NCBI GenBank assembly: GCA_014323795.1
Contig: JACONK010000018.1
Location: forward strand, 124,001 to 188,000
Source of the DNA: Paracoccaceae bacterium
GTDB lineage: Bacteria > Pseudomonadota > Alphaproteobacteria > Rhodobacterales > Rhodobacteraceae
Direction of reading: 5' to 3'
DNA length: 64,000 bases
The position numbers and the translations under genes were made by a program. Below are positions 8,304 through 55,052 of the stretch, one piece after another. The first letter of the stretch is position 1; each line of letters starts with the position of its first letter. The notes under the pieces were generated by a model. It made no database searches, was not told the origin of the DNA, and saw only the letters and a list, made by a program, of their open reading frames with translations.

Positions 8304-8900
8304 GCGACCCCGAACCACTTGGCGGCGCACCTTTAGCGGTGGGTGTTGCCATCTTTGTTGAGATTCATGTCCGGGGATTCGGTCGCCACCCTGCCACGGA
8401 TCCTGCCGCCGCCGTTCAGCATAAACAAGTCCCGTTTTCCATCACGGTATTGTCTTAAGATGCTGAACCTCGCCGCCCCGGATCCCGGCAGGCGGCAGAT
8501 TATCCCCGTACCAGATACCCCGTGGCTTGCCATCGGATATCCTGTTTTTTGTTCAGGCAGATTCAGCTGCCGGTCCCCCGGTCAGATACTGGAACGCTGG
8601 AACAGGGTTATTCCCGGAGAGACTTTTTTCCGAATCAGGGCAAACCTCCAAAAGTATTTTTGGGGACCTGCACAGCGTATCCTGCAAAGCCCTCAAGAAT
8701 CAGGACCAATATCAGGAAAGCAGGGACGCATCTTAAAATCAAACAGCAGATTGTCTGCCCTGTAATGTCTTAATGAGTTTGAAGGAAATGGGATAACGCG
8801 CACATTTTTCAACTTTCCTGTGGTCAACAAAGGACTTGCGTTTTACAAGGGCGCAGGTAGGGGGTGCACCCCGATTACGGATACATACGGGAGTGGCCCA
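8304..8900. other. Long dnaA-dnaN intergenic region, no gene seen
   Basis: About 600 bp without a plausible gene. Such regions next to dnaA can contain the replication origin, but I found no TTATNCACA-type box; TTATCCCCG near 8496 has two mismatches. The last 150 bp are relatively AT-rich and presumably hold the dnaN promoter. Function is open. Confidence 0.4.
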
Positions 8901-10019
8901 ATGAAAGTAAGCCTTGAACGCAGTGTGCTTTTGAAAGCGATGAGCCAGGCCCAATCGGTGGTGGAGCGTCGCAACACCATCCCTATTCTCGCCAACGTAC
9001 TGATTGAAGCGGACGGATCCACAGCACATTTCCGGGCAACCGACCTCGACATTGAAGTTGTCGAAAAGACAGCCGCCCATGTTGAACGGGGGGGGGGCAC
9101 CACAGTCATTGCTCACACGCTGCACGAAATTGTCCGCAAGCTGCCCGATGGTGCCATGGTGGAAATGACGGATAACGGTGCGACCGGGCGGTTGGAACTG
9201 CGCGCCGGAAGGTCAAACTTTTCGCTCACGACCCTGCCTCGCCAGGACTTTCCTGTCATGGCATCGAGCGAATATGACTGTAACTTTACCGCTAAGGCAG
9301 CTGTGTTGCGGCGGCTGTTCGATAAATCGAAATTTGCGATCTCTACGGAAGAGACGCGCTATTACCTGAACGGCGTCTATATGCATTCCGCCGAAACCGC
9401 GGGTGGCAAGGTACTGCGTTGCGTGGCCACAGATGGCCACCGACTGGCCCGTATCGACGCGGATATGCCAGGTGGTGCTGATGAACTGCCCGGCGTGATC
9501 GTGCCTCGCAAAACCGTAGGCGAACTGCGAAATCTGCTTGAAAACGAAGACGAAGACATCGCGGTCAGCGTGTCGGAAACCAAGGTGCGCTTCGCGACTA
9601 ATAACACTACGCTGACCTCGAAGGTCATTGATGGCACTTTCCCGGACTACACTCGGGTGATCCCTGCGGGAAACACCCGCCGACTGGAGGTTGACGCCGC
9701 AGAATTTGTCAGTGCCGTGGATCGGGTATCGACCGTATCATCCGAGCGCTCCCGTGCGGTCAAACTCGCACTGGATGAAGATCGGTTGATTCTGTCTGTG
9801 AATGCGCCTGACAGCGGGACAGCGGAGGAAGAGCTCGCCGTGGCATACGGCGATGAACAGCTCGATATCGGGTTCAATGCAAAGTACCTTGTGGAAATCG
9901 CAGGCCAGGTGGACCGCGAAAACGCGGTGTTCCTGTTTAACTCTTCCGGCGACCCGACACTGATGCGCGAAGGCAACGACGAAACTGCTATCTACGTCGT
10001 GATGCCGATGCGGGTATGA
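8901..10019 (+). CDS. dnaN: DnaN, DNA polymerase III beta sliding clamp
   Basis: The clamp (372 residues) tethers the replicative polymerase to DNA as a ring dimer. The start at 8901 gives the canonical MKVSLERSVLLKAMSQAQSV and is preceded by a GGGAG site; the frame upstream is not conserved. Conserved blocks are RNTIPILANVLIEA, ATDLDIEV, LPRQDFP, RYYLNGVYMH, VATDGHRLAR, and the C-terminal hydrophobic-pocket segment ending YVVMPMRV. A run of ten G residues (9088-9097) codes for the RGGG segment; such a slippery tract is odd in an essential gene. The frame is intact as given. Confidence 0.97.
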   Translation: MKVSLERSVLLKAMSQAQSVVERRNTIPILANVLIEADGSTAHFRATDLDIEVVEKTAAHVERGGGTTVIAHTLHEIVRKLPDGAMVEMTDNGATGRLELRAGRSNFSLTTLPRQDFPVMASSEYDCNFTAKAAVLRRLFDKSKFAISTEETRYYLNGVYMHSAETAGGKVLRCVATDGHRLARIDADMPGGADELPGVIVPRKTVGELRNLLENEDEDIAVSVSETKVRFATNNTTLTSKVIDGTFPDYTRVIPAGNTRRLEVDAAEFVSAVDRVSTVSSERSRAVKLALDEDRLILSVNAPDSGTAEEELAVAYGDEQLDIGFNAKYLVEIAGQVDRENAVFLFNSSGDPTLMREGNDETAIYVVMPMRV

Positions 10020-11378: not shown

Positions 11379-13841
<2,463 letters not shown>

Positions 13842-42352: not shown

Positions 42353-43156
42353 TCAGGCCGCTTGTGGCAGGCGTAACCGGTGCCCGATTCCGTCCACGGC
42401 GGCTTTTTCATCGCCCCGGAAAATCGGCAGCATCAGGCCACGGTTTTGCGCCCGCTGGAATTTTTTCCTGCTCAGGGGGCGCATGTCCGGCTCTTCAATC
42501 AGCGCAATGATCTGGATGTTTTCCCGCCTGTGACGTTCCGCTTCCATTTGAAGAAGCAGGGCTTCGTTCAGCTTATCGTTGGATGTCGCGAAACAGAGTG
42601 CCCCTGTTTTGGTATCCTGGGCTTTTGGCCGAATGATCAGGTCCGCCGGAAATTCGGAAAATTCGTCATCGACCGATGTATTTTCATCAAGGGTGGCCTG
42701 TGCGCCATACCGCCGGGTCAGTGCCGCCAATGCGTCATCCCGAAAGGTTGAACGAACCGCTTCGCGCGTCGGCAGCTCCAGGTCGCGCACACGGATGAGG
42801 GCGGACAGGAAGCGGATCATGGCCGGGCCCAACCGGCCCCGGTCAAAGGGTTTGCTGCGGATTTCACAGGTGTCCTGATCCCGGAAGGCATCGCCCTGTT
42901 TCAGGATTTCTTCCAGCAGCTTTGCCCGGCCGCCCCCGTCTATGGGAATCCCTGATCCCTTGAGTTGCGCAAGATATGCGCCGTCATCTTCCAGACGAAA
43001 CCCGTCACCGTCTTCAACAACATAGAACCCGATTAGGTCGCCGGACTGATCGGGAAACGGGGTGCCGACAGCGTAACCGCACGGCACCGGATTGACAGAG
43101 ATCGCCGCACAGAATGTTTTGCAAAGATCGTGTTCCAGCCCCTGCGCATCAATCAT
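42353..43156 (-). CDS. DUF1828/DUF1829-like protein of unknown function
   Basis: A 267-residue protein. The central segment LIGFYVVEDGDGFRLEDDGA with YLAQLKGSGI resembles DUF1828, and the C-terminal half (from about residue 150) is DUF1829-like, with FPADLIIRPKAQ and a helical arm. These domains occur in mobile and defence contexts, without a firm biochemical role. The start ATG 43156 overlaps the stop of the upstream gene (ATGA), so translation is coupled. A longer in-frame start exists at 43228 but lies inside the upstream gene. Function is unknown. Confidence 0.75.
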   Translation of the reverse strand: MIDAQGLEHDLCKTFCAAISVNPVPCGYAVGTPFPDQSGDLIGFYVVEDGDGFRLEDDGAYLAQLKGSGIPIDGGGRAKLLEEILKQGDAFRDQDTCEIRSKPFDRGRLGPAMIRFLSALIRVRDLELPTREAVRSTFRDDALAALTRRYGAQATLDENTSVDDEFSEFPADLIIRPKAQDTKTGALCFATSNDKLNEALLLQMEAERHRRENIQIIALIEEPDMRPLSRKKFQRAQNRGLMLPIFRGDEKAAVDGIGHRLRLPQAA

Positions 43157-44154: not shown

Positions 44155-44376
44155 ATGACGCAGAAACACGAGAAATTCCGCGCCCTTGCCGAGAGCAGGA
44201 CAAACAGGGCCCTTGATGCCATCCTGCGCATCGGGAAGCTTTCAAACCGCCAGAGCTATGAATGGGAGGAGGCCGAGGTGCGCAAAATCGTCAGGGCCCT
44301 GCGCGACGCCGTTGCGGACGTTGAGAAAAAATTCACATCTTCGCAGGGAACTAGGGAAGACATGTTCAAACTGTAG
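44155..44376 (+). CDS. Small protein of unknown function leading the methylase operon
   Basis: A 73-residue helical, charged protein (MTQKHEKFRALAESRTNRAL, then IGKLSNRQSYEWEEAEVRKI). It has a good ribosome binding site. Similar small proteins occur beside DNA methylases, but no fold or motif such as helix-turn-helix is evident. Its TAG stop runs straight into a nine-G tract that precedes the next start. It could be a small regulator or an accessory subunit; this is open. Confidence 0.6.
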   Translation: MTQKHEKFRALAESRTNRALDAILRIGKLSNRQSYEWEEAEVRKIVRALRDAVADVEKKFTSSQGTREDMFKL

Positions 44377-44384
44377 GGGGGGGG
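44376..44384 (+). repeat. Poly-G tract upstream of the adenine methylase
   Basis: Nine G follow the TAG of the small gene, and a second tract of seven G lies at 44427-44433 within the 5' part of the methylase reading frame. Slippage in the second tract would join the ATG at 44390 (MTDETQNLCPARR) with the methylase frame. Confidence 0.7.
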
Positions 44385-44447
44385 TTCGGATGACCGATGA
44401 AACTCAAAATCTGTGCCCGGCGCGGCGGGGGGGCGCACGGGGGAAAC

Positions 44448-45320
44448 ATGTTTGATTTACGCGACGTTCCGGTATCCCGCATACCCGTTGTAAATGTTGC
44501 CACGGTCCCGCAACGCAGCCCCTTGCGCTATCCCGGCGGCAAAACATGGTTAATCCCTCATATTCGGGAATGGCTGGGAAATTCCGGCCCTGATAGTCTG
44601 ATAGAGCCCTTTGCCGGTGGAGGGACCGTTTCCTTAACCGGTGTTATGGAAAACCTGGTTTCGACCGCATTGATGATCGAAATAGACCCGAAGGTTGCCG
44701 CGTTCTGGCGTTCAGTGTTGGAACACGGAACGATTCTTAAAGAGCGGATTCTGCAATTCGAACCGACTATAGAACGCCTAAGGGAAATTGAGCGATCAAC
44801 GCCGTCCTGCGTTTTGGAAAATGGTTTCCGCACGCTGGTTCTGAACCGCACCCGACGCGGCGGCATTCTGGCAAAAGGTGCCTCTTTTACCCGCAGGGGT
44901 GAAAACGGCAAAGGCGTTGTGTCCCGTTGGTATCCTGAAACCCTGGCCGACAGGCTGGCGGCCATTCAGGATCATGCCGCAAGAATTTCATTTACCGAAG
45001 GGGATGCGCTGAATCTGCTGCCGGCCTTGTTGCGGGGCCGGGGGGGAAATGCGGCGGTATTTATCGACCCCCCATATACGGCCGGCGGTGGAAAACGGGC
45101 TGGTTCCCGCCTGTATGACCATTCCTTCGTTGACCATGGGGCGTTGTTTTCGATGATGGCAGACTACAGGCCGAATTTCATGATGACTTATGACGCAGCA
45201 CCCGAAATTGTTGAACTTGCAAGAAAACACGGCTTTCACGCGGCGGCCTTGTCAATGAAAAACGGCCACCATAACCGGATTGCTGAACTCGTCATCACGC
45301 CGGCCCCGATCTTTGTATGA
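44448..45320 (+). CDS. D12-class DNA adenine N6-methyltransferase (Dam-like)
   Basis: The enzyme transfers methyl from SAM to adenine. Motifs are the N-terminal RYPGGKTWLIPHI, IEPFAGGGTVSLTGV (SAM binding), and AVFIDPPYTAGGGKR with the catalytic D-P-P-Y. The protein is 290 residues from ATG 44448 (MFDLRDVPVSR), which has a GGGG site; an alternative ATG at 44397 gives 307 residues with an Arg/Gly-rich leader. The stop overlaps the start of the NotI-like endonuclease (ATGA), a classic restriction-modification pair. The target sequence cannot be read from this. Confidence 0.88.
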   Translation: MFDLRDVPVSRIPVVNVATVPQRSPLRYPGGKTWLIPHIREWLGNSGPDSLIEPFAGGGTVSLTGVMENLVSTALMIEIDPKVAAFWRSVLEHGTILKERILQFEPTIERLREIERSTPSCVLENGFRTLVLNRTRRGGILAKGASFTRRGENGKGVVSRWYPETLADRLAAIQDHAARISFTEGDALNLLPALLRGRGGNAAVFIDPPYTAGGGKRAGSRLYDHSFVDHGALFSMMADYRPNFMMTYDAAPEIVELARKHGFHAAALSMKNGHHNRIAELVITPAPIFV

Positions 45321-46144
45321 GCGTGCGGTATCAGATTGCCGAGTGGTTTGGGCAGCCTTTCCAGAACCTGACAGTGACTGAGCGACAAGCCTTCGCACGC
45401 TCAGCACTGGAAATCGATCCGGTGCCTTGTTGCCCATATCAGGGAGGAACACCGATATGTGGCAAGCGGGGAGGTGTTTGCTCAATACGAAAAGGGTGTG
45501 AAACTCCTGTAATCACCTGCCCGCACCGCTTTGGCCAGGGTGATTTATTGCCTTCATGGTTGTCACGCATCGCAGGGTTCCCGGAAGTTTATTTGGCGAC
45601 TGAAGTACTGTTCATGCGCTCCCCCGCTACCGGCCGGGCGGCCGGGCGTATTGATTTGGTTGTTGCCCGGGACAAGGGCGCAGGTTCGTGGTTTGGCCTG
45701 GAAATACAGGCAGTTTATTTTTCCGGAAAGGGGATGTCAGCAGATTTTGAGGTGCTGCGGAAGAACACGGACATTCCCCCGCCGGAACCAACCGCATTGC
45801 GCCGCCCGGATTGGCGTTCCTCCAGTGCAAAACGACTTATGCCACAATTACAAGTCAAGGCACCGACCTTGCGACGGTGGGGAACAAAACTGGCGGTTGC
45901 GGTTGACCGTCCCTTCTTCGAATCTATAGGCGGGCCATCAGAGACACCATCCCGGGACTTGAATGAAGGCGATATCATCTGGCTCGTCCCCCAAATCACA
46001 GACGATTATCGTCTGGTGGAATATCATTGGGAGGTTCTGTCTCTTGAGGAATCCAGCGACAAGTTGCTTTCTGCCGAAACGATCAAGCGAGATGAATTCG
46101 AACGTGCGTTGCGAACCAGGTTGCGGTGCCTGGGCAAGAAATAG
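45317..46144 (+). CDS. NotI-family type II restriction endonuclease
   Basis: A 275-residue protein with the cysteine-rich centre typical of NotI relatives: VPCCPYQGGTPICGKRGGVC then SIRKGCETPV and CPHRFGQGDLL, which form a metal-binding knot. The PD-(D/E)xK-like core is GRIDLVVARDKGAG followed by WFGLEIQAVYFSG. The C-terminal part has DIIWLVPQI. It overlaps the adenine methylase by 4 bp and its own end overlaps the start region of the next gene, so all three probably form one operon. The recognition site is unknown. Confidence 0.8.
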   Translation: MSVRYQIAEWFGQPFQNLTVTERQAFARSALEIDPVPCCPYQGGTPICGKRGGVCSIRKGCETPVITCPHRFGQGDLLPSWLSRIAGFPEVYLATEVLFMRSPATGRAAGRIDLVVARDKGAGSWFGLEIQAVYFSGKGMSADFEVLRKNTDIPPPEPTALRRPDWRSSSAKRLMPQLQVKAPTLRRWGTKLAVAVDRPFFESIGGPSETPSRDLNEGDIIWLVPQITDDYRLVEYHWEVLSLEESSDKLLSAETIKRDEFERALRTRLRCLGKK

Positions 46145-46155
46145 GGGGTTTTCGG

Positions 46156-48702
46156 ATGACCGATGAAACCAGATGTCTGTGCGAAAAACTCCTTCGGGCT
46201 GATGAGGAAGACGATGTGGTCTCGCTGCTTCAAAAGGCAGGCTATTGGGATGATCACCGCTACTGGCGACACTATGGGGATATTGAGAATAACTGGGGCC
46301 AGAGCGGCAATCAGCAAAGCTTGGCCGAAGCGGCACTGGCCGAAAAGATCGTCAATTCGGTTGATGCGCGGCTGATCAATGAATGCCGGAAGAGAAACAT
46401 GAAACCGGAAGACAATGATGCACCGCCGACGCCCCGCGCCGCTGTGGCCCGTTTCTTTGAAAACAGCACAGGCGAGAAGATCGCGACAGGTGGCTACATC
46501 GAAGATTGGGACGCAAAGAAAACCCGTGACATCGCCAAAGGAATCACATTGACGGCGACGGGCAAACGCCCCAAAGGGCTCAATATCACCGTCTCGGATT
46601 GCGGCGAGGGGCAAAGCCCTGACAAGCTTCCTGACACGATCCTGTCGCTGTCAAAGAACAACAAGCAGTACATTCACTTTGTGCAGGGGCAGTTCAACCA
46701 AGGCGGCACCGGGGCACTGCGCTTCTGCGGAGATCGCAACCTTCAGCTTGTGATTTCCAGGCGCAATCCGGATCTCCTGCCTGATTGTGCAAGCGTACGA
46801 GATCGTGAATGGGGCTTTACCGTCGTGCGTCGTGAATATCCCGACGATACGCGGGATGGGCGGAAGAGTTCAGTCTACACCTATCTTGCACCGGTTGGCA
46901 TTGGCGGGGGTGCGCGGGATCGCTGTGGCAATGTTTTGTCTTTTGCTGCTGAAAGCTTCGGTATCTATCCCGATGATGAAAAGCCCTATGGCCGCGAAGC
47001 GCGTTATGGCACGGCCATCAAGATGTTCGACTACCGGTTTACCGGGGAAAAATCAAACATTTTGCGCGGCCAGAGCCTTCTGAGTCGCCTTGATCTTCTT
47101 CTGCCCGAGATCGCCCTGCCCGTGCGCTTCTACGAATACCGCACTAACAAGGCCGGGAGTTATCTGGATGTTGGCAGCCGGCGCAAAAATCTCTTCGGCC
47201 TGCTTCGCAGGATCAGGGACAGCGACAACGTGGAAAGCGGCTTTCCGGTAAACATTCCGTTCCAGCCCAACGGCGAGAAACTCATCGCCCGTGTCTTTGC
47301 GTTCGTTCAGGCTGGCTCAGCCAAGGAAAAAGATGACGATGATGCCCCTTCAACCGCCAAGAAGCTTGGCGGGGTGCGCAGTTATCGCAAGCGCGAAGGC
47401 ATTGTCTTCATGCGCAACGGTCAGACCCAGGGCAGCCTGCCGAAGGATTTTTTCCGCCGTGAGGCGGTGAAGATGAAACCGCTTGCCGATGATCTTCTGG
47501 TCTTTGTCAACTGCGATGGCCTGTCTAACAAGACACGCGAGAATTTGTTCATGTCAAGCCGTGACAGGCTGACCGACAATGAATTCAAGAAAATGCTTGT
47601 GGATTCACTCGAAAAGACCATCCGTGACTGTTCCGAACTCAAAGCGTTGCGCAACAAACGCCAGCAGGAGCGCACACAAGAACGCCTCGAAGACGACAGG
47701 CCGCTCGCTGATGTTCTGCAATCCCTAAAATCGCCCAACCTGCTGGCCAAGATATTGAACCCTGGACAGAGGATACCAACACCGTTCAGGACCGTCCCGA
47801 CAGGCAGCGATCCGAAAGAGGAGTTCAAGGGAGAATTCTATCCCACCTTTTTCAAAAACAAAGGCGCGGAATACGGCAAAACACTTGACAGGGTATGCCC
47901 GATCAACAATAGGATGCGCCTGACCTTTGAGACGGATGCGCAGAACGACTATTTCACCCGCGCATCCGAGCGCGGCGCGTTTGATCTGACCTGGACAGGC
48001 CGCGACGGGGCCGAGTCCAAGACCAGCCCGGTCGGACCGACCCTGAAAAACGGCATCGCAACCGTCATGGTTGATTTGCCCGGCGAGGCCAAAGTTGGCG
48101 GTGAGATTGAGTTTATCGCCCGCACATATGATACACTTCACCAGTTTGAAAACCGTATCAAGGTGACAATCCAGACCGGGGCTGCACAGCACACGGGCGG
48201 AAGCGGTGGACGCAAGCCGCCGAAGGACAAAGATGGTGCAGAACGGGAACGGCCCGGAAAACTGGCATTGCCGGAGATCGATCCCGTTCATCGTGAACGT
48301 TGGAAAGAACAAGACTTCGATGAATTCACAGCGATGAAAATTAAGAGCCTTGGATATGATAAGAATGAGACATCCGAACTTTATGAGTTCAAGGTTAACA
48401 TGGACAACGAGCCCCTGATGAACGAAGCCAAGGCCAAGCGGCTTTCAAAAGAGGAGGTAAATAACCTGAGAAAGCAATTCATGTATGCCAACGTGCTGAT
48501 TGGCATGTCAATGATATTGGAAGACAAGCATGGCAGCAAGAAGCCTGCAGAGGCCGATGAGGATACGCCGTCTGAGTACGTTGAAGATAAGGTTGAGTGG
48601 ACATGCCGTGCGCTCGCCCCGTTTATTCCGGCACTGATCTCTTTAGGATCGATTGATCTGGAAACCGATGACAGGATCGAAGGACTTGAAGACAGTGCCT
48701 AA
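46156..48702 (+). CDS. MORC/MutL-like GHKL ATPase in a restriction operon
   Basis: An 848-residue protein with GHKL (HSP90-like) ATPase motifs in order: the N-box LAEKIVNSVDARLINE (E63, N67, D70), the D-x-G-x-G motif TVSDCGEGQSP (D148-G152) and the lid motif QFNQGGTGALRF (184-189). A transducer-like region with GIVFMRNGQTQGSLP follows. The last 450 residues have no assigned domain but contain KRLSKEEVNNLRKQFMYAN near the end. Restriction-linked GHKL ATPases related to MORC and MutL are known in bacteria; placement next to methylase and nuclease fits. The ATG at 46156 follows GGGGG and is 11 bp after the endonuclease stop. It meets the opposing methylase with a 4-bp overlap. Confidence 0.8.
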   Translation: MTDETRCLCEKLLRADEEDDVVSLLQKAGYWDDHRYWRHYGDIENNWGQSGNQQSLAEAALAEKIVNSVDARLINECRKRNMKPEDNDAPPTPRAAVARFFENSTGEKIATGGYIEDWDAKKTRDIAKGITLTATGKRPKGLNITVSDCGEGQSPDKLPDTILSLSKNNKQYIHFVQGQFNQGGTGALRFCGDRNLQLVISRRNPDLLPDCASVRDREWGFTVVRREYPDDTRDGRKSSVYTYLAPVGIGGGARDRCGNVLSFAAESFGIYPDDEKPYGREARYGTAIKMFDYRFTGEKSNILRGQSLLSRLDLLLPEIALPVRFYEYRTNKAGSYLDVGSRRKNLFGLLRRIRDSDNVESGFPVNIPFQPNGEKLIARVFAFVQAGSAKEKDDDDAPSTAKKLGGVRSYRKREGIVFMRNGQTQGSLPKDFFRREAVKMKPLADDLLVFVNCDGLSNKTRENLFMSSRDRLTDNEFKKMLVDSLEKTIRDCSELKALRNKRQQERTQERLEDDRPLADVLQSLKSPNLLAKILNPGQRIPTPFRTVPTGSDPKEEFKGEFYPTFFKNKGAEYGKTLDRVCPINNRMRLTFETDAQNDYFTRASERGAFDLTWTGRDGAESKTSPVGPTLKNGIATVMVDLPGEAKVGGEIEFIARTYDTLHQFENRIKVTIQTGAAQHTGGSGGRKPPKDKDGAERERPGKLALPEIDPVHRERWKEQDFDEFTAMKIKSLGYDKNETSELYEFKVNMDNEPLMNEAKAKRLSKEEVNNLRKQFMYANVLIGMSMILEDKHGSKKPAEADEDTPSEYVEDKVEWTCRALAPFIPALISLGSIDLETDDRIEGLEDSA

Positions 48703-49895
48703 CCGCACATCTTTCGATGCACCAGAACAACCTCACGCGCACTTGGTGCATGGGGTTGCTGATGAACATACCAGCCCCGGTTCGGTACATCGCGCCAAAG
48801 CCGGCCATTCTCAGCATCAAGCGACGCATCCCGTGGGCGATACTCTTCCAACCCGCAGCTTTGCATCACCTCCAAGTACTTCCTGAGCTGCCAGTCCGGA
48901 TTTGAAAACCCGACCATCTGGACAATCCTGGTGTCAAAGTCACATATCCGCACCAGTGCCAAAAATATGGATTCCAGGTTGGCAAAATAGGTTTTGAGCT
49001 CTTTTTCGTACCGACCACCCAAGGTGTAATACCGTTCGGCATTCCCGTCCAGTTTGTTTGCGATCCAATACGGGGCCGGGGTTTCCCGCCGACCATTGAT
49101 CTGCCAACGATGATAGCGCACATGAATACCCGGATAGGGCGGGGATGTGACAATCAGCCTGGGGGCACCGGTCTTTGTCACTGGTCCGTGTTCATGAATC
49201 CGGCTGGCATCGCAATTCAGGATCGTTGGGGACGGGATGTTGGGATGATGAACCACCTCCCGCTGCAAATCCTCCATGCCTTTCAGCATTCTATGGAAAT
49301 ACCTGGTGATCCGCCCGCGCAGCTCGCTTATCGTCATGAGGCACTTGCGATTGTCGAGCGATAATTGGGCAGCGCGCAGAACCACGCAGCGGGCGAATTG
49401 TTCCAGCCTTGCGCTGTTCAGGGTTTCGATGTGCCTAAGGGCTGCGGCGATCAGGTTTCTGTGGCGCCAGGTTTCAGTCCCCTCCAGGTGGCGAAAATAT
49501 CCCTGCGCCTGCCAGTTACAATAACGCTGTGCGTCCCGGGATATCCTGAGGGCGCGTTCAAAGCCCGGACGCCAAAGCCTCAATTGCAGGGTTTCATCTT
49601 CGGTCAAAACCGTTGACTTCACCGTGCTGACGAAGATCGCCAGTTCGTTAATGTCGGCCCCGATACAACGCCGCCCGGCCCGCAGGGCCTCAACAGCCGT
49701 GGTGCCGCCGCCAACAAACGGGTCAAGCACCAGGTCGCCCGGTTCCGTGAATACATCAATGGCTTCGCGGGCGAAGCGGGGGGAAAACCTTGCCGGATAG
49801 CGATAGAAATTATGGGTTGCGCCCTGAACCCGCGTCCGATCCTGGGCCGCTGATTTTAGGCGGCTGAAATGCCCGTCTGGTAAAATCCTGTCCAT
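48699..49895 (-). CDS. DNA methyltransferase (N6-adenine or N4-cytosine type)
   Basis: A 398-residue SAM-dependent DNA methylase. The SAM motif LVLDPFVGGGTTAVEALRAG is at about 56-75, and the catalytic motif LIVTSPPYPGIHVRYHRWQ near residue 250. The N-terminal THNFYRYPARFSPRFAREAI is typical of this group. Motif I preceding motif IV fits a non-beta class. The start ATG 49895 has AGAGG upstream; longer starts add low-complexity sequence. Its 3' end overlaps the opposite-strand GHKL gene by 4 bp, so the two may belong to one system transcribed from both sides. The target is unknown. Confidence 0.85.
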   Translation of the reverse strand: MDRILPDGHFSRLKSAAQDRTRVQGATHNFYRYPARFSPRFAREAIDVFTEPGDLVLDPFVGGGTTAVEALRAGRRCIGADINELAIFVSTVKSTVLTEDETLQLRLWRPGFERALRISRDAQRYCNWQAQGYFRHLEGTETWRHRNLIAAALRHIETLNSARLEQFARCVVLRAAQLSLDNRKCLMTISELRGRITRYFHRMLKGMEDLQREVVHHPNIPSPTILNCDASRIHEHGPVTKTGAPRLIVTSPPYPGIHVRYHRWQINGRRETPAPYWIANKLDGNAERYYTLGGRYEKELKTYFANLESIFLALVRICDFDTRIVQMVGFSNPDWQLRKYLEVMQSCGLEEYRPRDASLDAENGRLWRDVPNRGWYVHQQPHAPSAREVVLVHRKMCG

Positions 49896-53981: not shown

Positions 53982-55052
53982 ATGTTCGGACAAAGGCTTC
54001 GGCTGGCCCGAAAGCGGGCCGGCCTTTCCATGCAGGCCCTTGCCGGCCGCGTGACCCCGGGCGTATCGGCGCAGGCCATCAGCAAATACGAGACGGGCAA
54101 GATGATGCCGTCCTCGGCAGTGCTGGTCGGCCTGGGCAAAACGCTCGGCGTATCGCTCGACTTCCTGCTGGGCGGACAGGTCGGGGCCTTGCAGAATGTG
54201 GAATGGCGGAAGCATTCAACCGCCCCGGTGCGGGATCGTGCCATGGCGGAAGCGGTCGTTATCGAAAGGCTTGAAGAGTATTTCGCCATTGAAGACATCC
54301 TTGGCCTGCCCCCGATCAAAGACCCTTGCGCCGGGCTGCGGGTGGAGTGTGTCGCCGATGAGGCCGCCATCGATGCCAAGGCGCGGGAAGTGCGGAATAA
54401 ATGGAAGCTTGGGATTGACCCGATCCCGAGCATGACCGCGCTGTTGGAAGACAAGGGATTCAAGGTCATTGAGGTTGACCTGCCGAAACGGGTCAACGGG
54501 CTGGCCTGTCAGGTTGAGCGGGCGGACGGCACCCTGGCCGAAGTGATCGTGGTCGCGCGCCAAACCAATGCGGAGCGCAGGCGATTCAACCTGGCCCATG
54601 AGCTCGCGCACCGGGTTATCACCGGAACCGGCACCCCGGATATCAAACATGAAAAGGCCATGAACCGTTTCGCCGGGGCGTTTCTTGTCCCGCGTGAACA
54701 TCTGGAAGAGAAGGCGGGCGGGAGCCGGCACAGCATGCCCCGGATGGAAATCCTGCGGCTGAAACGCACCTATGGGGTTGCGGCCAGCGCACTGCTGGTT
54801 CGGCTTGGCCAGGCGGACATCATGCCGAAGTCGGCGGTGGAGCGTGTCTTTAAAACCTATGCCCGAACCTGGCGGGGCGAAGAGCCGGAACCGCTGGAAC
54901 ATGACGAAGGCTTCGCGGCCTTTGAAAAACCGCAGCGGTTTGAACGGCTCGTCTGGCAGGCCTTGGGGGAAGAGATGATCTCCCCCGTGCGGGCTGCGCA
55001 CATGCTCCGGTGCCCCCTGGAACAGGTTGAACGCGACATCAGGGGGTCGTAA
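53982..55052 (+). CDS. XRE regulator fused to ImmA/IrrE-type zinc metallopeptidase
   Basis: A 356-residue two-domain protein. An XRE helix-turn-helix occupies about 4-62 (RLRLARKRAGLSMQALAG and ISKYETGKMMPSSAVL). The C-terminal peptidase has the zinc motif FNLAHELAHRVITG (H206-E207-L-A-H210) and FAGAFLVPREHLE, the usual COG2856 pattern. Such proteins act as peptidase-regulated repressors or antitoxins. The PIN-domain gene follows after 3 bp, forming a likely toxin-antitoxin pair. The upstream palindrome is a plausible autoregulatory site. Confidence 0.88.
   Translation: MFGQRLRLARKRAGLSMQALAGRVTPGVSAQAISKYETGKMMPSSAVLVGLGKTLGVSLDFLLGGQVGALQNVEWRKHSTAPVRDRAMAEAVVIERLEEYFAIEDILGLPPIKDPCAGLRVECVADEAAIDAKAREVRNKWKLGIDPIPSMTALLEDKGFKVIEVDLPKRVNGLACQVERADGTLAEVIVVARQTNAERRRFNLAHELAHRVITGTGTPDIKHEKAMNRFAGAFLVPREHLEEKAGGSRHSMPRMEILRLKRTYGVAASALLVRLGQADIMPKSAVERVFKTYARTWRGEEPEPLEHDEGFAAFEKPQRFERLVWQALGEEMISPVRAAHMLRCPLEQVERDIRGS

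Follow-up and report, generated by a model that had tools for sequence, protein, structure and literature searches.

GHKL ATPases encoded beside DNA methylases are a known kind of protein. Iyer, Abhiman and Aravind (2008, PMC2292703) described prokaryotic MORCs and paraMORCs in which a GHKL plus S5 ATPase lies by DNA methylases and moves laterally, and they proposed DNA looping or clamping for those in restriction-modification (R-M) operons. The Shedu protein VcSduA, or paraMORC3 (PMC12137116), is a defence protein with a GHKL ATPase at its N-terminus, and in the SspABCD systems (PMC8092258) a mark-maker is combined with alternative effectors, SspE or SspFGH. Moreover, R-M units that insert with long target duplications have been described (Nobusato et al. 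2000, via PMC3031569). The locus studied here, at positions 44155–49895 of a 64,000-nt stretch of contig JACONK010000018.1 from a Paracoccaceae bacterium (hereafter the window; the contig measures 318 kb and the assembly 2.58 Mb), resembles each of these systems in part. We think that it is a composite: a mobile core, formed by a small gene, a GHKL ATPase gene and a gene for an SPPY-type DNA methylase (MT2), into which an autonomous pair of D12 methylase and NotI-like endonuclease genes has been inserted, the core being a modification-linked defence module with an exchangeable ATPase. To this reading as a whole we give a probability of about 0.55.

The genes of the locus and the ATPase family

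Five genes are found in the locus. The first, at 44155–44376 on the forward strand, encodes a small helical protein of 73 amino acids ending in FKL, a C-terminus that is conserved in most aligned members. It is followed on the same strand by the D12-class adenine methylase (44448–45320; PF02086, E 5.8e-10), whose start was picked between the candidates 44397 and 44448 from a 73% identical relative that adjoins a NotI gene (L025/L027), and by the NotI-family endonuclease (45317–46144; PF12183, E 8.7e-39, 133.7 bits with a cut-off of 22), the two genes overlapping in ATGA. The ATPase of 848 amino acids comes next (46156–48702, forward), and MT2 (48699–49895, reverse; PF01555, E 9.4e-16) converges on it with a 4-bp overlap. 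A preliminary description of this DNA had given the same arrangement and families for the four larger genes, and both are borne out by the open reading frame (ORF) positions and, the ATPase apart, the Pfam matches, as are the intact DPPY motif of the D12 methylase and TSPPY motif of MT2. It had missed the 73-residue ORF and a 39-nt direct repeat.

The ATPase matched no NCBIfam or PADLOC model, and its Pfam match, to HATPase_c_3, is sub-threshold (E 0.064). An AlphaFold model with a mean predicted local distance difference test score of 84.9 gives residues 42–502 a GHKL (Bergerat) fold plus S5/transducer, in agreement with the fold expected beforehand, and continues with a coiled segment, an immunoglobulin (Ig)-like sandwich (residues ~560–680) and an alpha/beta-helical C-terminus (~705–832). 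The GHKL motifs are intact, as had been claimed: E63, N67, D70, D148, G150, G152, G178 and G183, belonging to the N-box, DxGxG and later glycine positions, are kept in 73/73 aligned relatives. The name MORC-like is right for the fold and wrong for the motif, since the MORC-specific S5 motif GhXhhpXXRhl occurs in none of the 73 relatives (residues 231–520) and NGQ occupies its place in 72 of them; membership in MORC by this motif was therefore rejected. Two paraMORC assignments were rejected as well, neither trait being conserved: HxH (paraMORC5) is found in the last 300 residues of only 6 of the 73 relatives, and ExxxH (paraMORC2) in residues 231–520 of only 16.

Besides the S5 motif, the small protein encoded upstream separates this family from the described MORCs and paraMORCs (PMC2292703), and the C-terminus appears to do so too, looking Ig-like and not of the restriction endonuclease (RE), TIR or HxH kind. 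The family also differs from VcSduA (PMC12137116), which carries a DUF4263 nuclease where none was found in the window ATPase. Among 53 C-termini there was no Pfam match to an RE-fold nuclease, with Ig-like matches spanning only residues 10–128 of 297, and none to TIR, the last part of the fold being barely tested. More generally, a nuclease was not recognised in the ATPase, whose last 140 residues were barely tested.

Regarding MT2, SPPY is present in 22/22 aligned proteins and motif I lies about 190 residues ahead of it, which we take to be the order of the alpha class. In the PDB it comes closest to N4-cytosine and N6-adenine methylases, with matches that span only some 50 residues; an alpha-class N4-methylcytosine enzyme has been described (PMC3425538).

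Recurrence of the core and the inserted pair

A scan of genome contigs gave 378 relatives of the ATPase, of which the best 80, equal to 79 distinct loci, were used, so that the census counts describe the closest relatives. With locally built profiles, MT2 was found at E<1e-50 in 49 of the 79 loci. In 47 it faces the ATPase directly in convergent orientation; where the locus extends for 1.3 kb or more past the ATPase gene, the count is 46/67. This sustains the earlier suggestion that this ATPase is tied to DNA modification. In 35 of the 79 loci a profile match to the small protein immediately precedes the ATPase; the other upstream partners are a cluster of 340–430 amino acids (11 loci), one of 200 amino acids (9) and one presumably PIN-like by its sequence type (3). 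On the ATPase tree of 73 rows, the presence of MT2 changes 3 times and the type of upstream partner 22 times. In even draws that include the genome of the window, the ATPase occurs in 7/289 genomes of the class and, with a different query, in 3/196 of the order, and MT2 at E≤1e-30 occurs in 3/278 class genomes, all three bearing the ATPase. No nuclease was recognised in the core of other loci. An SFII (superfamily II) helicase neighbours about 70% of the MORCs of PMC2292703; here no recurrent family of this kind appeared among the neighbour clusters found in at least 3 loci, helicases not having been searched as a class, and the neighbours scanned gave a single HamB (L032) and a helicase (L036). 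Judged from sequence, the core appears to be a little-known, horizontally moving unit of three genes that is spread across bacterial phyla and has no recognisable DNA-cutting enzyme; that it is also met on viral-classed contigs and close to integrases and Hachiman or Mza genes speaks for a mobile defence module.

In eight loci (L036, L037, L053, L059, L061, L068, L071 and L104) the 3' ends of the ATPase and MT2 genes, which lie on opposite strands, share 50–95 bp, an arrangement that may serve antisense control. At the start of one contig (L023:74–829, genome G053) ATPase-like and MT2-like matches overlap on opposite strands, perhaps as an assembly artefact.

What distinguishes the window is the gap of 1,779 bp between the small ORF and the ATPase, which is occupied by the D12 and NotI genes. 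This gap is at most 183 bp in 44/44 other loci with both genes (35 of the 79, plus L017–L020, L141, L142, L145, L154 and L155), and in none of the 79 closest ATPase loci does anything lie between the two. The inserted pair is bracketed by a 39-nt direct repeat whose copies match at 32/39 positions (82%), the best 39-mer match in 60 dinucleotide shuffles being at most 28. The left copy (44378–44416, forward), just after the stop of the small gene, holds a ribosome-site-like stretch and then a second ATPase-like start, MTDETQNLC, after which the sequence diverges; the right copy (46144–46182, forward) contains the intact ATPase start, MTDETRCLC. Because the pair is flanked by this repeat, which includes the ATPase start, we read it as a nested insertion: a D12 and NotI type II pair would have landed between the small gene and the ATPase, with the ATPase start copied on both sides. 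As in the R-M insertions with long target duplication (PMC3031569), a copied target would thus flank an R-M pair, but the repeat of the window is short and diverged.

The company kept by NotI genes is consistent with a self-contained pair that probably acts independently of its surroundings. A local profile search found NotI in 0/79 of the closest ATPase loci, and a relative of the D12 methylase in three of them (L045, weak at E 9e-5, L062 and L099), never between the small ORF and the ATPase. PF12183 itself is infrequent, being present in 3/278 class genomes and 13/398 phylum genomes, with the window counted in both. In the 18 other NotI loci examined (L027, L028, L124–L134 and five of ten plasmid records) a methylase is always the neighbour: it is of D12 type in 10 (L027, L124–L129, L120, L121, L123), and of SPPY type in 2 (L131, L134), while in the other 6 (L028, L119, L122, L130, L132, L133) a motif, a profile or the annotation of the record marks it as a cytosine methylase. 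The ATPase profile matched none of these 18 loci, several of whose contigs are short. Three plasmids carry NotI with a DNA adenine methylase, one of them measuring 4,009 bp, and a 6.5-kb contig (L027) carries a close relative of the D12–NotI pair but no ATPase. The window pair shares PF12183, the 4-bp overlap and the adenine methylase neighbour with NotI-family type II pairs (L124–L129, L120, L121, L123), and differs from them in being nested in another module. The preliminary description had taken D12 and NotI as parts of the system of the ATPase and had proposed to look for the four-gene set in other genomes; these counts do not support such a set. Homologues of the ATPase do occur mostly apart from D12 and NotI, and not apart from MT2. 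We think that the nested pair is a caution against inferring operons from adjacency alone.

In the NotI-like protein, C39, C48, C55, C68, D113, E129 and Q131 are invariant in 11/11 aligned proteins, and we assume for these cysteines and acidic or glutamine positions the role that they have in the NotI structure; the protein gave no PDB match by sequence. The relative at L027 (2592–4241) is 73% identical (up to 78%), with its NotI gene split across three frames and a transposase-like ORF that shares 4 bp with the start of its D12 gene.

Covariation of the small protein and MT2, and exchange of the ATPase

The small protein and MT2 co-vary, and the ATPase has been exchanged independently of them. 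Over 29 loci with all three genes, the distance correlation is 0.81 for the small protein and MT2, 0.43 for the ATPase and MT2, and 0.34 for the ATPase and the small protein; the partial correlation of the small protein and MT2 given the ATPase is 0.78, and that of the ATPase and the small protein given MT2 is −0.02. For the small protein and MT2 the value is 0.77 without the window, 0.63 in 12 dereplicated loci (there as a partial correlation, reached by 7/5000 permutations) and 0.80 when L141, L142 and L154 are added (32 loci), L154 being the only informative one among the three.

The exchange of the ATPase is cleanest in L154, which belongs to the family of the window. Compared with L029–L031, its small protein is 89% identical and its MT2 84–85%, and its ATPase 36%. 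The DNA similarity to L029 spans 8879–9223, breaking 2 bp before the stop of the small gene (9225), and resumes at 11755 (MT2 end 11744), about 10 bp inside MT2. In the window, L096 is nearest by the small protein (64%) and MT2 (52%), with an ATPase of 34% identity, and the ATPase is nearest to L029–L031 (73–76%). The DNA similarity of the window to L029 does not end with the ATPase but reaches into the final 470 bp of MT2, whose middle part is mixed; the window thus looks like a mosaic, less clean than the exchange in L154.

Function of the core and competing explanations

In our reading, MT2 would mark the host DNA and the ATPase would form a dimer clamp, driven by ATP and of the MORC/MutL/Hsp90 type, and act as effector on DNA without the mark by clamping it, looping it or recruiting a host nuclease; the clamp idea comes from the looping proposal of Iyer et al. 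(PMC2292703). The small protein would be matched to MT2, through a shared target or direct contact, and would couple it to whichever ATPase is present. The Ssp systems (PMC8092258) offer a parallel in their mark-maker with alternative effectors, and distant ATPases (~30%) lie 2–5 kb from SspC and SspD on 3/6 plasmids (L011, L013 and L015, from Hymenobacter, Ensifer and Devosia), SspB being present in the L011 and L015 stretches. The close relatives of the ATPase are paired instead with a methylase, and the Ssp link is limited to these three plasmids.

Several points weigh against the composite reading. MT2 was not found at E<1e-50 in 30/79 loci, some of which end too early to tell, and SspB occurs in 5/278 genomes of the class draw, with the ATPase in 0/5 of those stretches. 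The repeat copies are unlike at 7/39 bases, and the MT2 of the window is unevenly L096-like, some segments, chiefly the C-terminus, being nearer to L029. When nearest neighbours are taken by the small protein, MT2 is the closer in 12/29 loci and the ATPase in 8, with 9 tied. The upstream partner type (48 loci) changes 8 times on the MT2 tree and 7 times on the ATPase tree, which gives MT2 no preference. Finally, replacing the middle gene alone would keep both flanks correlated.

The last two points, together with the exact replacement of the ATPase in L154, suit an alternative in which nothing functional underlies the covariation: the ATPase gene, which is the longest of the three and lies between the others, would simply be swapped by recombination while its flanks stay linked. 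We regard this as possible, though less likely than not, as the partial correlation is still 0.63 in the 12 dereplicated loci and ordinary homologous exchange within the ATPase gene would be unlikely at 36% identity. Somewhat less probable is that the flanking repeat is no target duplication, its left copy being the start of a former ATPase, since displaced, and its right copy that of the incoming one. The differences between the copies fit this, as does the fact that the ATPase differs in lineage from the small gene and from the greater part of MT2, but in the alignment the copies look closer to each other than to L096 or L029–L037 there.

It is unlikely, in our opinion, that the ATPase and MT2 serve as housekeeping for a replicon or element, for example in mark-dependent repair, segregation or silencing, and are carried by mobile elements without a part in defence. 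The lack of a recognised nuclease, the MutL- and Hsp90-like fold and the presence of relatives on large plasmids and viral-classed contigs (7 ATPase relatives, 4 with MT2 and 3 with the small ORF) speak for it; against it stand the patchy distribution of the ATPase in class and order and the defence genes among its neighbours, HamB (L032) and MzaA (L072), found on scanning 10 of the 142 listed neighbours. A little more doubtful still is a nuclease-free silencing defence, in which MT2 would write a self mark, the small protein would read the same site and the ATPase would clamp or compact unmarked DNA, as a bacterial counterpart of the eukaryotic MORC silencing of mobile DNA and a plug-in for methylation or phosphorothioation. 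A hybrid system, with the ATPase controlling or remodelling DNA for NotI, both methylases protecting and the insertion kept as a nuclease supply for the ATPase, is very improbable, since the same-strand, closely spaced and intact D12, NotI and ATPase genes and the lack of a recognised nuclease in other cores are outweighed by the absence of NotI from ATPase loci, that of the ATPase from other NotI loci and the ATPase-free pair at L027.

If the composite reading is true, an ATPase family without an above-threshold Pfam, NCBIfam or PADLOC model would be the exchangeable effector of a cross-phylum DNA-marking system, with the small protein as match-maker. It would provide a simple bacterial setting for the question of how MORC-type ATPases act on DNA, and the ATPase could be considered as the effector that orphan Ssp modules lack, 2,211 of 2,678 sspBCD sets being without sspE or sspFGH (PMC8092258). 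No description of the ATPase family, its small partner or the exchange pattern was found in the literature searched, which included few subscription papers.

Of the 142 core neighbours listed, 20 were scanned in two lists with one overlap; besides the Hachiman and Mza genes and the helicase already named, integrases were found near the core (L082, L104). On one viral-classed contig (L143:34–3237) the ATPase and MT2 lie on the same strand with an integrase-like ORF adjoining them. At L057:4611–7154 the core is adjoined by another GHKL protein, which contains two HATPase domains and has relatives in L084, L013 and L015; it is perhaps HEF_HK-like (compare PMC8011034). In the window itself, a DUF1828 protein at 42353–43228 matches the PADLOC candidate PDC-M24B (E 1.5e-16), and a protein with a helix-turn-helix and an M78 peptidase at 53982–55049 matches PADLOC RmrA (E 2.9e-43).

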